The notes under the pieces: generated by a model
The model's database searches: none
Told to the model about the DNA's origin: nothing
What the model saw: only the letters and a program-made list of their open reading frames with translations
Part shown: positions 47,060 through 53,071 of the stretch, one piece after another
Numbering within the stretch: the stretch's first letter is position 1
Layout of the letters: each line of letters begins with the position of its first letter
Assembly: GCF_009834915.1 (NCBI RefSeq)
Contig: NZ_WVHS01000001.1
Span: 1,054,001 to 1,118,000 of the forward strand
Source of the DNA: Hufsiella ginkgonis
GTDB lineage: Bacteria > Bacteroidota > Bacteroidia > Sphingobacteriales > Sphingobacteriaceae
DNA: 64,000 nt
Reading direction: 5' to 3'
Translations under genes and position numbers: made by a program

Positions 47060-47067
47060 TACATTTG
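47060..47067 (+). promoter_or_regulatory. -7 element ahead of the SAM riboswitch
   Basis: TACATTTG matches TAnnTTTG and sits about 33 bases before the riboswitch. A clear TTG is not seen at the proper distance upstream. The 100 bases before it (46958-47059) are AT-rich and hold no gene. Confidence 0.5.
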
Positions 47068-47099
47068 TCCCGGTAAACGTACCGTTCTTTAATTTCCTG

Positions 47100-47206
47100 C
47101 TTATCCAGAAAGACGGAGGGAAAGGCCCTGTGAAGTCTTAGCAACCTGTAAACGCCATGTTATCAAGGTGCTAATTCCTGTTTCGAAGCAATTCGGAAAA
47201 GATAAG
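47100..47206 (+). ncRNA. SAM-I riboswitch (S-box)
   Basis: CTTATC (47100-47105) pairs with GATAAG (47201-47206) as helix P1. Between them are the S-box landmarks in order: ATCCAGAAAGACGGAGGGAA, then GGCCCTGTGAAG, then TTAGCAACCTG, and AAGGTGCTAATTCC. These are the conserved elements of class I SAM riboswitches. It lies in the leader of the SusC/SusD/TlpA operon, so SAM should lower expression of that operon. Confidence 0.9.
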
Positions 47207-47310
47207 TTAGTTTATGTTCCGGCCGGAAAAACTCGCTCATCTGCCGCCCTGCTCCACCTGTTCTGTTGATAAGCCCGGTAGTTTACCGAAACTATTAACA
47301 CACCTAGAAC

Positions 47311-47370
47311 ATGAAATTTTTTACCTGCTTATCCGCCCCATTGGTCACCGCATCGATGCATTGTTGTTGA
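47311..47370 (+). CDS. Short leader peptide ending Cys-Cys
   Basis: ATG 47311 to TGA 47368-47370 gives the 19-residue MKFFTCLSAPLVTASMHCC. It lies after the SAM riboswitch and 78 bases before the SusC start, with a GC-rich hairpin directly behind it. Peptides with Cys codons at the end are known in actinobacteria as cysteine-responsive attenuators. A similar job here is an inference. A 65-residue frame overlapping it in another phase (47214-47411) looks less natural. Confidence 0.5.
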   Translation: MKFFTCLSAPLVTASMHCC

Positions 47371-47383
47371 ATTTGCCTGCCGT

Positions 47384-47406
47384 GCGGGGAGCTGCGGCCG
47401 CCCCGC
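47384..47406 (+). terminator. GC-rich hairpin between leader peptide and SusC
   Basis: GCGGGG (47384-47389) pairs with CCCCGC (47401-47406) across an 11-base loop. It starts 14 bases after the leader peptide stop codon. No T-run follows, so it is more likely a pausing or attenuation structure than a full intrinsic terminator. Confidence 0.45.
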
Positions 47407-47448
47407 GATAGCACATTTTCGATCATTCTATTAGCCTTTAATCACAAC

Positions 47449-50400
47449 ATGAAAACAAAATTACTTGCCTGCCTGGCGGTCCTGCTGGCACTCGTCAGCC
47501 ACAGCTATGCGCAGGATAAACGGGTTACCGGCACGGTAACCCAGGAAGATACTCAACAGGCGCTGGCCGGCGTCAGCGTACTGATAAAAGAAACCGGGAG
47601 AAGCACTTATACCGATGCCGACGGTCGTTTTGCCATCCTGGTAAAGCCGGAAGAGCGTACGCTTATATTTACCTATGTAGGGTTCGATAAACAAGAGGCT
47701 GCTATTACCGATGCCCCGGTAAACATCTCCCTGAGATCAGCCAGCAATACCCTCAACGAGGTACTCGTGGTGGCTTATGGCACTGCGAATAAAACAACGT
47801 ATACCGGCTCCGCATCCGTGGTGAACGCCGAACAGATTCAGCGGCAGCAGGTTTCGACCCTGAGCCGTAGCTTGCAGGGGTTGGCGCCTGGTGTACAATC
47901 AATAGCCTCTGCAGGCCAGCCGGGCAGCGACGCTACTTTACGTATCCGCGGCATCGGTTCGGTAAATGCTTCGAGCACGCCGCTTTACGTAGTGGATGGC
48001 GTGCCGTTTTCGGGAAACATCAATGCCATCAGCCCCAACGATGTACAGTCTATCACCGTACTCAAAGATGCGTCGGCCAGTGCGTTATACGGCTCGCGCG
48101 GCGCGAATGGCGTAGTGATCATTACCAGCAAACAAGGCAAACTGAACACTAAGCCGCAGGTATCGCTCAATGCCAGTACCGGGCTCTCCAGCCGCGCGGT
48201 GGCCGATTACGGCTTCGTAAACACGCAGCAATATTTCGAGCTTGAATGGGAAGCCTTGCGCAACAACCAGCTCGACCAGGGGAAAACGGCAGCGCTCGCT
48301 GCACAATACGCTACTAACGAGCTGGTGAGTACCCTCAAGATCAATCCCTTTGGCACGGCATACCCAAACCCGGTAGGGCTGGATGGCAAACTGGTGGCCG
48401 GCGCCGTACCCCTCTGGAACGACGACTGGGCCGAATCGCTCTCCCGCACCGGTATCCGCAATGAGCTCAGCCTGGGCATCAGCGGCGGCAGCGCCGACTC
48501 GAAATACTTCGTTTCCGGTGGTTACCTGAGCGATAAAGGGTTCATCGTAGCTTCGGGTTTCCAGCGCTTTAATACCCGCGTAAACTACAATACCCGGGTA
48601 AACAACTGGTTCGAAGCCGGCCTGAACGTTACGGCCTCGTCTACCAGCCAGGATTCGCCGCCGCAAACAGACAGCAGCCAGGGGAACTTCGCCAACTTTC
48701 CCCGCCTGGTATCCAATATCTACCCGGTATACGAACGCAATGCCGACGGCTCTTACAAACTCGACGAGAACGGCAACCGTATTTACGATTTTGGCAACTA
48801 CCGCCCAAGCTCGGCGGCTACCGGCAACAACCTGCTGGGCGGCGCCGACCTGAATAAGTACAGCAGTAAGAACGATGCATTAACCTTTCGCGGCAATATC
48901 CAACTGAACATTGCCAACGGGCTGAAGTTAAAGAGCAGCCTCAATGCGGATTATAACAGCCGCCTCGGTCACTCTTATACCAATCCCATCCTGGGAACAG
49001 GCGTAAGCGGCGGCGGCTCGGTAAGCAAAAGCAGCGCAAGGGGCCTGGGATACACTTTCAACAACCTGCTTAGTTATACCTTCGATCTCGCCGCCAATCA
49101 TTTCGACCTGCTTGGCGGCCAGGAAGTGTATAACTATAATACCTCGTCGCTCTCCGGCTCGCGCAGCAACTTCGGCTTTGCCGATAAGGACGAGCCGGCA
49201 GCGGCATCGCTCCTTAACAGCTTCAGCGGCAGTTCAGACAACTACAAGCTTGCCAGTTTCCTGGGAAAGATCGACTATAACTTCGATGGCAGGTACTATT
49301 TCTCGGCGAGCTTCCGCCGCGATGGCTCGTCGCGTTTCAGCGCGGATTCGCGGTGGGGTAATTTCTGGTCGTTCGGCGCTTCGTGGAACGCCAAATCCGA
49401 ATCGTTTCTCCAGGACGCCGGCTGGCTTAACAGCTTGAGCTTCAAAGGCAGCTACGGCGCACAGGGGAACGATAACCTCGGCAGTTACTACGCTTACCGC
49501 GGCTTATACAGTATTTACAACAGTCTCGGCAATGCCGGACTGATCTCTTCGCGCCTGCCTACACCCGGCCTGAAATGGGAAACCAACCTCAACCTGAACA
49601 TCGGTACTGACTTTGCCCTGTTCGATAACCGCCTGAGCGGGTCGTTCGAAGTGTATAACCGTAGCTCCAAGGACCTGCTGTTCAGCCGGCCGCTCTCTCC
49701 ATCGCTGGGCTTTACTGATATCGACGATAACATCGGCTCGCTGAAAAACACCGGGTTCGAGGGCAACCTCCAGGTGTCGCCGGTGCGGAACAAGGTATTC
49801 CGGTGGGACCTTGGCGTAAACTTCGGTCATTATAAGAACAAGATCACCAAACTGCCGCAAAAGGAGATCATCGCGGGTGCTATCGGGCAGCTTGGGTCGA
49901 CCAAGAAGCTCACCGTGGGCAGCTCGGTGTACGATTTCTACATTCGTGAATGGGCGGGCGTAGACCCTGCGAACGGAAAACCGCTGTGGTACAAGGATGT
50001 GATCAGCAGCGGGCAGGTTACCGGCCGTACCACGACCAGCGTGTTTGCCGATGCCAGCCAGTACTTCCAGGGAAGCGCCCTGCCAGATCTGTATGGCGGC
50101 GTAACCAACAACTTCCGCTACCGCAACTTCAGCCTGTCGGCCGTGCTGGCTTACAACCTGGGCGGCAAGATCCTCGATCTCGACGAGGTGATGATCTCCC
50201 ACAATGGCGAAGGCATCGGCCGCACCTGGAGCGCCGATATCCTCGACCGCTGGACACCTGAACACACCAGCACCGATGTGCCCCGCCTCAGCACCATCGC
50301 TACCAACTGGAACAGTATTTCTACACGGTTCCTCTACAACGCTACGTATGCACGCCTCAAAAATGTGAACCTTGGTTACGACCTTCCGGGAGCCCTGGCG

Positions 50401-50565
50401 AAACGCATCGGCGTTAAAGACGTGCGGGTATTTGCCAGCGGCGAAAACCTGGTGACGCTTTTCGGGCACGACGGACTGGACCCGGAACAAGCAGTGGACG
50501 GCGTAACCTTCTACCGCTACCCTGCCCAGAAAACCTTTTCATTCGGCCTAAATCTCTCTTTTTAA
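47449..50565 (+). CDS. SusC/RagA-type TonB-linked outer-membrane transporter
   Basis: 1038 residues with a signal peptide (MKTKLLACLAVLLALVSHSYA). A carboxypeptidase-D-like domain (VTGTVTQEDTQQALAGVSVLI) leads to a TonB box and plug: NEVLVVAYGTANKTTYTGSA, LRIRGIGSVNASSTPLYVVDG, then VLKDASASALYGSRGANGVVIITSK. A 22-strand barrel ends in YPAQKTFSFGLNLSF. It works with the SusD lipoprotein 10 bases downstream to import nutrient oligomers. The riboswitch upstream suggests a sulfur-related cargo rather than a glycan. Confidence 0.95.
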   Translation: MKTKLLACLAVLLALVSHSYAQDKRVTGTVTQEDTQQALAGVSVLIKETGRSTYTDADGRFAILVKPEERTLIFTYVGFDKQEAAITDAPVNISLRSASNTLNEVLVVAYGTANKTTYTGSASVVNAEQIQRQQVSTLSRSLQGLAPGVQSIASAGQPGSDATLRIRGIGSVNASSTPLYVVDGVPFSGNINAISPNDVQSITVLKDASASALYGSRGANGVVIITSKQGKLNTKPQVSLNASTGLSSRAVADYGFVNTQQYFELEWEALRNNQLDQGKTAALAAQYATNELVSTLKINPFGTAYPNPVGLDGKLVAGAVPLWNDDWAESLSRTGIRNELSLGISGGSADSKYFVSGGYLSDKGFIVASGFQRFNTRVNYNTRVNNWFEAGLNVTASSTSQDSPPQTDSSQGNFANFPRLVSNIYPVYERNADGSYKLDENGNRIYDFGNYRPSSAATGNNLLGGADLNKYSSKNDALTFRGNIQLNIANGLKLKSSLNADYNSRLGHSYTNPILGTGVSGGGSVSKSSARGLGYTFNNLLSYTFDLAANHFDLLGGQEVYNYNTSSLSGSRSNFGFADKDEPAAASLLNSFSGSSDNYKLASFLGKIDYNFDGRYYFSASFRRDGSSRFSADSRWGNFWSFGASWNAKSESFLQDAGWLNSLSFKGSYGAQGNDNLGSYYAYRGLYSIYNSLGNAGLISSRLPTPGLKWETNLNLNIGTDFALFDNRLSGSFEVYNRSSKDLLFSRPLSPSLGFTDIDDNIGSLKNTGFEGNLQVSPVRNKVFRWDLGVNFGHYKNKITKLPQKEIIAGAIGQLGSTKKLTVGSSVYDFYIREWAGVDPANGKPLWYKDVISSGQVTGRTTTSVFADASQYFQGSALPDLYGGVTNNFRYRNFSLSAVLAYNLGGKILDLDEVMISHNGEGIGRTWSADILDRWTPEHTSTDVPRLSTIATNWNSISTRFLYNATYARLKNVNLGYDLPGALAKRIGVKDVRVFASGENLVTLFGHDGLDPEQAVDGVTFYRYPAQKTFSFGLNLSF

Positions 50566-50575
50566 ATCAGAAAAC

Positions 50576-52054
50576 ATGAAATCTCTAAAAACTATCCTCT
50601 ATATACTGCTCGCCGGGCTGGCGCTTACCGGCTCCGGCTGCAGCGACGAGTTTTTCGATACGGCCCCTTCTGGCGACCTCACCGATGCCGAAGCGTTCGC
50701 CTCTACCAAAAACATCGATGCACTGGTGAACGGAACGCTCCGCTACCTGATGGAAACCAGCACGTCGCAGGACAATCCCGGCTATGGCGCTATCCTGCTT
50801 ACCCGCGACGCGATGGCCGACGATGCGATCCCCCGCGACGGCGTATATGGCTTCCGCGATTCCTACCCGTACAAAGACCCGTTTGACAATACCACCCGCC
50901 GTGCGCTGTTTTTCTGGAGCTTCCAGTACAAGGTGATCGATAACGCAAACAATATACTGGCCAAAACAGACGCCGCCGCCGGCACGGATGCCGATAAAAA
51001 GTACCTGAAAGGACAAGCTTACGCGCTCCGCGCCTTTGTGTACCTGAACCTGGTACGCCAATACCAGTTCACTTACAGCAAGGATAAAACAGCCAAAGCC
51101 GTACCTATTTATATCGAGCCGTCCACTCCCTCTACAGCCGGGAAGCCACGCGCTACCGTAGAAGAAGTTTATAGCCAGGTAATTGCCGACCTCACCCAGG
51201 CCGAAACGCTGCTGGCAGGCTTTAAGCGTTCGGTGAAGAACCGGCCGGATGTAAACGTAGTGAAAGGATTGCTCGCCCGCACTTACCTTACGCAGCAAAA
51301 ATGGGACCTCGCCGCGGCAAAAGCCGCCGAAGCACGTTCGGGCTACCCGGTGATGGAAGCCTCCCAATACCTGCAGGGCTTTAACGACGTAACCAACCCT
51401 GAGTGGATCTGGGGACACCCGCAAAAGGCCGATCAAAACCTTGGAGGCGCCTCTTTTTTTGCCTATATCGATGTAACACCGGCTTCGGGCTACCGCAGCA
51501 TCATGCCTGATCCGTATTTCCGCGCGCTGTTTGACAATGCCGATATCCGCAAATCGCTGTTCGAAGTGGTTACCACCGCTTCCGACCCAATGTACCGATG
51601 GATCAAGTACAAAAAGTTCGTAGACAAAACGGACAAGTCGGGAAACATTCCGCTGATGCGCTCCTCGGAGATGGCATTGATCGAAGCAGAAAGCAAGGCC
51701 CGCCTGCACGACCTCGCCGGTGCGGTTACCGCCCTGAACCTGGTACGCGTAAAGCGTAACCTCCCCGCGGCGGCGGCAGCTAACTTTGACGAAATCGGGC
51801 TGATCGACGAGATCATCCGCGAGCGCCGGCGTGAGCTTTGGGGTGAAGGTTTCCGGCTCGACGACATCCTGCGCCTGCAGCAGGCCGTAGTGCGTAAGGA
51901 GACCACCGAAACCGTGAAGATCGGCACCGCTGACGTGCTGCTTAAAGGACATTACGTACGCGTGTTCCCGGATAACAGCCCCCTCGTGGCAAATAGTCCC
52001 TATTACCTGTTCCCTATTCCCGTTAACGAAATAAACACCAACCCCAATCTCTAA
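50576..52054 (+). CDS. SusD/RagB-family nutrient-binding lipoprotein
   Basis: 492 residues with a lipoprotein leader (lipobox TGSGC). A TPR-like core is visible (YLKGQAYALRAFVYLNLVRQYQFTY...VEEVYSQVIADLTQAETLL...VKGLLARTYLTQQKWDLAAAKAAEA), and the C-terminal RagB/SusD signature IIRERRRELWGEGFRLDDILRLQQ is present. The final YYLFPIPVNEINTNPNL is the usual end. It caps the SusC barrel at the cell surface; the TlpA-like gene follows after 3 bases. Confidence 0.95.
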   Translation: MKSLKTILYILLAGLALTGSGCSDEFFDTAPSGDLTDAEAFASTKNIDALVNGTLRYLMETSTSQDNPGYGAILLTRDAMADDAIPRDGVYGFRDSYPYKDPFDNTTRRALFFWSFQYKVIDNANNILAKTDAAAGTDADKKYLKGQAYALRAFVYLNLVRQYQFTYSKDKTAKAVPIYIEPSTPSTAGKPRATVEEVYSQVIADLTQAETLLAGFKRSVKNRPDVNVVKGLLARTYLTQQKWDLAAAKAAEARSGYPVMEASQYLQGFNDVTNPEWIWGHPQKADQNLGGASFFAYIDVTPASGYRSIMPDPYFRALFDNADIRKSLFEVVTTASDPMYRWIKYKKFVDKTDKSGNIPLMRSSEMALIEAESKARLHDLAGAVTALNLVRVKRNLPAAAAANFDEIGLIDEIIRERRRELWGEGFRLDDILRLQQAVVRKETTETVKIGTADVLLKGHYVRVFPDNSPLVANSPYYLFPIPVNEINTNPNL

Positions 52055-52057
52055 AGT

Positions 52058-53071
52058 ATGAAAACGTTAAAATCTGTCATCGCACTGGCGTTCGGCGTAG
52101 TCGCCGGAAACGCCGCTTTCCCGCAGGCGCCCGCTACTCTTCAACTTGACGGCCGCACGCCGGTAACCGGAAAAGTGTATCTCCAGAAGTTCCAGAACAA
52201 GATGTTCAGCACGATCGATTCCTCGAAAATCACAAACGGCAAGTTCCGGTTTGCTACCCCGGTACAGCTGCCGGAACTGTATGGGCTCACGTTCGACAAA
52301 GACAAAGCGCCTTATTTCCTGTTCCTCGACAACCCGAAAGCGGAAATCTCGCTGGACTCGGCGAAGTATTTTGCAAACACTACCGTGAAGGGATCTGCAG
52401 CGCAGGACCTGTTTAGCCTTTATAAAACGCAGCGCGGTGTAAAGATCGACGAGTTTATTAAAGCACAACCTGCCTCCATCGTATCGGCCTACGTGTTGTA
52501 CCGCGATTTTTCCTACCGCCTTACGCCGGAGGAGATCGAAAGCAACGTAGCATTGCTGGACAAATCGCTGGCCGGCACGCAATATGTGCAGGTGCTGAAC
52601 GGGCTGCCGGCCGTACTCCGGAAGGTAGCCGTCGGCAATAAAGCGCCCGATTTCACCTCTACGGATGTGAACGGCAAATCCTTCACGCTGTCGCAAAACC
52701 TTGGCAAATACATCCTGCTCGATTTCTGGGCCGCCTGGTGCGGCCCATGCCGGAGGGAGAACCCGAACGTAGTGAAAGCTTTCGAGAAATATAAAGACCG
52801 CGGTTTTACCGTGATAGGCGTATCGCTGGACAAGAGCAAGGCGGCCTGGGTAAAGGCCATCAAAGACGATGGGCTTAACTGGACGCAGGTTTCGGACCTT
52901 AAATATTGGGACAGCGAACCGGCTAAGCTTTTTGCCGTACGCGCCATCCCGGGGAACTTCCTCATCGCGCCCGATGGCACCATTGTGGGCCGTAACCTGA
53001 GAGGCGCCGAGCTGCAGCAGAAGCTGGAAGAGCTGCTCGGGGCAAGTGCGGCTAACGCGGCCGGGAAATAG
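52058..53071 (+). CDS. TlpA-like thioredoxin with DUF4369-type N-terminal domain
   Basis: 337 residues. The N-terminal leader is followed by a DUF4369-like beta domain (PVTGKVYLQKFQNKMFSTIDSSKITNGKFRF, residues about 30-120). A helical spacer leads to an AhpC/TSA-type thioredoxin domain (APDFTSTDVNGKSFTLSQNLGKYILLDFWAAWCGPCRREN, active site CGPC at residues 228-231; cis-Pro at AIPGNFLI). Such proteins reduce disulfides in the periplasm. Third in the SusC-SusD operon, it fits handling of a thiol- or disulfide-containing cargo. Confidence 0.92.
   Translation: MKTLKSVIALAFGVVAGNAAFPQAPATLQLDGRTPVTGKVYLQKFQNKMFSTIDSSKITNGKFRFATPVQLPELYGLTFDKDKAPYFLFLDNPKAEISLDSAKYFANTTVKGSAAQDLFSLYKTQRGVKIDEFIKAQPASIVSAYVLYRDFSYRLTPEEIESNVALLDKSLAGTQYVQVLNGLPAVLRKVAVGNKAPDFTSTDVNGKSFTLSQNLGKYILLDFWAAWCGPCRRENPNVVKAFEKYKDRGFTVIGVSLDKSKAAWVKAIKDDGLNWTQVSDLKYWDSEPAKLFAVRAIPGNFLIAPDGTIVGRNLRGAELQQKLEELLGASAANAAGK

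Follow-up and report, generated by a model that had tools for sequence, protein, structure and literature searches.

A short reading frame of Hufsiella ginkgonis that ends in two cysteine codons, located between a SAM riboswitch and the start of a SusC-type gene, very probably represents a genuine leader peptide, one of a kind that recurs behind the SAM riboswitches of the Sphingobacteriaceae. We further consider it moderately probable that this frame is translated, senses sulfur amino acids and forms one control unit with the riboswitch for the susC-susD-tlpA genes. The features of the locus within the analyzed 64,000-nt stretch of the genome (hereafter, the window) are collected in Table 1.

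Table 1. Features of the riboswitch–leader–susC locus, numbered from the first base of the window
Feature	Position	Strand	Basis
Putative -7 promoter element, TACATTTG (TAnnTTTG match)	47060–47067	+	sequence read
SAM-I riboswitch aptamer, RF00162	47098–47208	+	covariance model, 80.5 bits (cut-off 44.4), full length
P1 stem 5' strand, TGCTTATCC	47098–47106	+	riboswitch model match and folding
Predicted hairpin enclosing the leader initiation region up to the A of the ATG	47259–47311	+	folding, z -1.85
Anti-P1 element GATAAGC, alternative partner of the P1 5' strand	47268–47274	+	match this long in 3% of shuffles
Leader peptide frame, MKFFTCLSAPLVTASMHCC-stop	47311–47370	+	sequence read, shuffle test, family pattern
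Second copy of the P1 5' strand with flank, TTACCTGCTTATCC, within the leader frame	47321–47334	+	13/14 identical to 47093–47106
Presumed sensing codons, His17-Cys18-Cys19-stop (CAT TGT TGT TGA)	47359–47370	+	Cys/Met enrichment at family C-termini
GC hairpin, GCGGGG (47384–47389)/CCCCGC (47401–47406), 6 bp	47384–47406	+	sequence read
SusC/RagA-type TonB-linked outer-membrane protein, regulated gene	47449–50565	+	TIGR04056, 800 bits
SusD family lipoprotein, probably same operon	50576–52054	+	PF07980
TlpA/ResA-like thioredoxin-fold protein with DUF4369, probably same operon	52058–53071	+	domain matches

The frame opens with an ATG at 47311–47313 and closes with a TGA at 47368–47370, the codons for His17, Cys18 and Cys19 spanning 47359–47367; the original prediction of a 19-residue His-Cys-Cys-stop frame ahead of SusC was correct in this respect. 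In dinucleotide shuffles of the 240-nt interval between riboswitch and SusC, an ATG frame of 10–60 codons ending in Cys-Cys-stop arises at a rate of 0.36%, and the observed frame exceeds chance. Its terminal cysteine codons number only two, with a single methionine codon two codons earlier. The string AACATGAAA is identical at the leader start (47308–47316) and at the SusC start (47446–47454), which fits two real initiation sites.

Four SAM riboswitches were found in this genome. The two located far from their gene, ahead of SusC and metX, are both followed by a leader, and the two with short gaps, ahead of a cysteine desulfurase gene (78 nt) and metH (93 nt), lack any short frame rich in Cys at its end. 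The leader behind the metX riboswitch, MKKETPRDFSIRTTSVMCCCMC, begins 10 nt after it and ends MCCCMC-stop, a terminal Cys count reached in none of 3000 shuffles.

The pattern was then assessed across the family, where SAM riboswitches were present in 198 of the 201 genomes screened. We read 91 loci, 59 of them with a long gap (at least 150 nt from riboswitch to gene) and 32 with a short one, and scored as a leader any short frame opening with ATG whose last six residues include two or more Cys. Such frames occur in 22 of the 59 long-gap loci; shuffling gave 1.4 on average and never more than 5 in 200 rounds. Related loci within the family make these counts non-independent. The antisense strand of the same loci yielded a single Cys-ended frame. 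With the stricter threshold of at least three Cys, 11 long-gap loci remain versus 0.07 by shuffling, and among the short-gap loci no Cys-ended short frame was found (0/32). Examples of leader ends within the family include VVCCMCCCCC, MCICLDGCCCC, MCMCCCC, MSMFYC and MCGFCMC, each directly before the stop. The peptide itself is not conserved, since third-position bias is absent from the leaders' middle codons.

In each of the 22 metX/metY loci, a frame begins at most 11 nt past the aptamer. In these frames, chosen by position and not by composition, Cys makes up 20.0% and Met 15.9% of the last ten residues, compared with 1.4% and 2.3% of the body. This figure is slightly conservative, since the scan picked an alternative, closer ATG at three loci (L058, L080, L088); at L080 this ATG opens a frame different from the Cys-rich one. 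Two further families of the class have similar metY leaders (L203, ending CCMCICCPCC-stop, and L217, containing SMRMRMPMSC); most metY/metX riboswitch loci of Bacteroidota, e.g., those of the group f15, have a short gap and no such leader. An Rfam scan of the leader regions of 20 loci detected no known element besides the SAM riboswitch.

A poly-Cys-stop pattern taken alone was dropped as a leader detector, most of its matches lying inside long coding frames. Poly-Cys leaders were also seen 130 and 57 nt before TonB-receptor genes (MKIYMHFSLPHRMCCCC-stop in L125, G019:C16, and MYFNLFISPNFELFVFNKCPCCCC-stop in L139, G022:C7), the former receptor being confirmed as SusC-type and the latter assigned by reading. 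As neither shows a SAM riboswitch core upstream, Cys leaders can occur independently of the riboswitch. Two further poly-Cys frames from two genera, MLLVNTQIYSSPVLRQHAHLVSERCSCCCC-stop (L252, G054:C4) and MFESIMKFNNTRKFYLYSFSKICCCC-stop (L262, G030:C39), precede genes for PhyH-family dioxygenases (PF05721) by 66 and 77 nt. No SAM riboswitch core was seen upstream of either, and the dioxygenase may act in cysteine or sulfur metabolism.

The window locus itself has no counterpart of its riboswitch–leader interval among the 30 relatives searched, and the genus is represented by the H. ginkgonis genome alone. The original prediction had proposed comparing relatives for a conserved start codon and Cys run, and none of those searched has the locus. 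The nearest SusC homologues, from Pedobacter (71–72%) and Dysgonomonas (63%), are preceded by neither riboswitch nor leader. At the Pedobacter loci (L094, L095), the gene upstream of SusC ends, by reading, in an apparent peptidase dimerisation domain, hinting that these importers might take up peptides.

The leader begins 213 nt past the first base of the aptamer, so that, if co-transcribed with the riboswitch, it cannot lie at the 5' end of the transcript. The consensus of the -7 promoter element in Bacteroidota is TAnnTTTG, and the putative match TACATTTG would place the transcription start some 25–30 nt ahead of the riboswitch. Between this presumed promoter, just upstream, and the riboswitch lies a small hairpin, CGGTAAACGTACCG with TTCTTT (47071–47084), of which CGGTAAAC is also complementary to 47281–47288.

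Downstream of the aptamer, the GATAAGC element can take the place of the 3' strand in P1. The leader ATG follows it at a distance of 37 nt and SusC at 174 nt, and the predicted hairpin that encloses the leader initiation region overlaps it. The same element is found 17 nt ahead of the regulated gene start in another locus of this genome (L001), and comparable anti-P1 copies lie 6–41 nt ahead of the gene start in L007, L008, L010, L015 and L039. The leader frame also contains a second copy of the P1 5' strand, the 9-nt core of which was seen in 0 of 200 shuffles. When the fold was taken to 47340, the leader start region was unpaired with a probability of 0.42 with P1 enforced and 0.87 with the anti-P1 pairing, an opening attained by 2% of shuffled linkers; with the fold extended to 47470, the contrast shrinks to 0.61 versus 0.72. 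The SusC start region changes modestly between the two states, from 0.56 to 0.68. The modeling suggests that the target of the riboswitch is the leader start codon and not that of SusC, and control of leader translation is the most likely, though predicted, outcome. Barrick and Breaker (PMC2258182) report that, where a SAM-I riboswitch sequesters the ribosome-binding site, this site belongs to the 3' side of P1. By analogy, the position of the leader start at the edge of the aptamer in the metX/metY loci suggests the same riboswitch control of the leader.

The modest response of the SusC start would also suit another explanation, in which the SAM riboswitch alone governs SusC and the Cys-Cys frame is a coincidence within a 240-nt untranslated leader. 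The frame has just two Cys codons and shows no conservation at its locus, since no searched relative has it, both in keeping with coincidence. This explanation is nevertheless improbable given the low shuffle rate, the stronger metX example in the same genome and the family-wide pattern with the short-gap loci as a negative control; moreover, the riboswitch elements are placed ahead of the leader ATG, 174 nt away from SusC.

The GC hairpin was described accurately by the original prediction as 6 bp long and beginning 14 bases past the leader stop; its proposed role as the regulatory partner of the leader was not borne out. A perfect stem of at least 6 bp also occurs in 16% of shuffles, and the segment folds at -16.4 kcal/mol compared with a shuffle mean of -18.5 kcal/mol, i.e., no better than shuffled sequence. 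With stem length and fold energy both within the shuffle range, the hairpin was ruled out as a special structure. There is no U-run 3' of it, and it is not a terminator; a search for an intrinsic terminator anywhere between riboswitch and SusC likewise returned none with a U-run. The window locus thus misses one defining feature of transcriptional leader attenuators, the terminator. In a check for an antiterminator, the segment from leader to gene folded no better than shuffles. In the minimum free energy structure of the window, the Cys codons UGUUGU pair with ACAACA ahead of the SusC start. Across 33 leaders, no unusual pairing of the Cys run with the region preceding the gene was found, and blocking of the gene start by the Cys codons as a general mechanism was left unsupported.

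Terminators are found in one related genus. At the SusC-type loci of this genus (g14), an intrinsic terminator lies right behind the riboswitch (e.g., GAGCACTTCTGATTTAAGGGGTGCTT with T9, -12.9 kcal/mol) and the leader comes after it, 11 leaders being exactly 24 codons long. These 11 all carry a second hairpin of -8 to -15 kcal/mol with at least T4 behind it, and its 5' arm consists of the final Cys codon plus the stop (CCTGTTA). Judging from this anatomy, a ribosome waiting on the Cys codon would cover the terminator arm directly, and we therefore interpret these loci as two attenuators in tandem, one responding to SAM and one based on the leader peptide. In the metY leaders of the Sphingobacterium group, a hairpin starts 9–11 nt after a conserved CGA-ATG (Arg-Met) at each of the 13 loci. 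Its arms vary between loci but still pair (GTCGTC/GACGAC, GCATACACA/TGTGTATGC, GCACATG/CATGTGC), and this was read locus by locus because MAFFT left the 3' arms unaligned. CGA-ATG was found too in SusC leaders of g14. In genus g17, metY leaders (e.g., L061, L073, L092) end Arg-Met-Arg-stop (CGAATGCG), with the hairpin directly behind the stop; the exact motif CGAATGCGNTAGTCGTY has a single occurrence in 295 genomes of the class, in a metY leader of this genus.

Such features raise the question of which amino acid is being read. The leaders might sense methionine, or the general rate of translation, more than cysteine, with CGA-ATG and the Met codons as the sensor and Cys incidental or additive. 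Enrichment of Met nearly matches that of Cys, SAM and methionine share one pathway, several metY leaders end RMR-stop with no terminal Cys, and CGAATG is invariant across nine metY leaders and nearly so across the 11 leaders of g14. However, many leaders carry runs of three to six Cys codons, the window leader ends Cys-Cys with its lone Met two codons before, and CGAATG may be conserved as RNA, so that we regard predominant methionine sensing as rather unlikely. In the preferred reading, the leader would sense Cys in the window and both Cys and Met in the relatives. The original prediction named Cys codons; Met codons are equally part of the pattern.

Conservation as RNA leads to another alternative, namely that the leader region belongs to a larger RNA switch in which pairing, not decoding, keeps the sequence and the frame is incidental. 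Copies of both P1 strands in the window and the hairpins kept by relatives after CGAATG could be read this way. We consider it highly unlikely, as the start position and the 24-codon length are fixed, the Cys/Met enrichment follows the reading frame and is confined to the C-terminus, and the antisense strand and shuffles yield almost no such frames.

In actinobacteria, leader peptides coding for cysteine are already known (Seliverstov et al. 2005, PMC1262725), among them the mycobacterial polycysteine short ORFs (Canestrari et al. 2020, doi 10.1111/mmi.14498, as covered in PMC13236596). Like the leaders described here, they are short ORFs that place Cys codons immediately ahead of the stop, precede sulfur genes and often lack a recognisable terminator; in the window, too, a Cys run ends a short ORF upstream of a gene. 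They differ in belonging to another phylum and, in the mycobacterial case as summarized in that source, in being leaderless, whereas the window ORF follows a SAM riboswitch. The Sphingobacteriaceae ORFs, in contrast, carry Met as well as Cys codons and also precede SusC-type uptake genes. The uORFC-8-2 motif before cysS in Rhodobacterales, for which ribosome-mediated attenuation was proposed (PMC8632094), resembles the window in that a short upstream ORF contains a pair of neighboring Cys codons, but it has an intrinsic terminator, lacks a riboswitch and concerns different genes in a different phylum. As in ribosome-mediated attenuators generally, the leader ORF is enriched near its end in codons for the regulated amino acid.

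The SAM-I riboswitch of the Xanthomonas campestris met operon also responds to uncharged initiator tRNA (PMC7270179), so one mRNA leader reads both SAM and tRNA charging, as proposed for the window. There the aptamer RNA itself senses the tRNA, whereas here a translated peptide frame would be the second sensor. Within the same phylum, PMC9723704 mentions in general terms leader-peptide attenuators before amino-acid biosynthesis operons of Flavobacterium psychrophilum; they share a short translated leader with the window, and neither cysteine nor a combination with a SAM riboswitch appears in that part of the description. Within the limited literature library searched, no paper described cysteine leader peptides downstream of a SAM riboswitch or anywhere in Bacteroidota. 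Cys/Met leaders behind SAM riboswitches are thus an apparently undescribed form of leader-peptide attenuation.

We propose the following mechanism, in which translation, stalling, ligand responses and the direction of the effect are all inferred. At high SAM, the aptamer would close P1 and the leader start codon is predicted to be held in downstream structure. At low SAM, the P1 5' strand would pair with GATAAGC (47268–47274), opening the leader start and letting ribosomes enter. With ample cysteine, the ribosome would read the leader to its stop and leave; with Cys-tRNA scarce, it would wait at the two final Cys codons, so that the RNA before SusC would be covered or refolded and SusC expressed. 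The simplest guess for the route to SusC is Rho-dependent termination of the untranslated leader, averted by translating or waiting ribosomes; a change in access to the SusC start is the other candidate. In the g14 relatives, a waiting ribosome on the 5' arm of the terminator should prevent termination.

The idea of a Cys-coded leader as a second sulfur sensor accordingly gains from the same-genome metX leader, the many family loci and the terminator overlap in g14, and loses the window hairpin. In the window the riboswitch seems to act on the leader start, and the two layers would therefore be wired together rather than independently stacked. Whether this extends to a general two-input device of Bacteroidota we judge to be evenly balanced: the riboswitch would gate the translation or transcription of a Cys/Met leader, so that expression of metX, metY and SusC-type importers would require both low SAM and a shortage of sulfur amino acids. 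The conserved CGA-ATG would then serve as a second element that reads methionine or stalls the ribosome.

Together, our results indicate that a single mRNA leader seems to monitor SAM as well as the cysteine/methionine supply before nutrient-uptake and methionine genes are switched on. Riboswitches and leader-peptide attenuation, usually seen as alternatives, appear repeatedly to share a single leader here, and the short-gap riboswitch loci of the same genomes provide a natural control. With fewer than 50 codons, these leader frames are likely to be missed in gene annotation. Bacteroidota, in which few attenuators have been described, gain a testable cysteine/methionine sensor, and SusC-type importers of unknown substrate become linked to sulfur nutrition.
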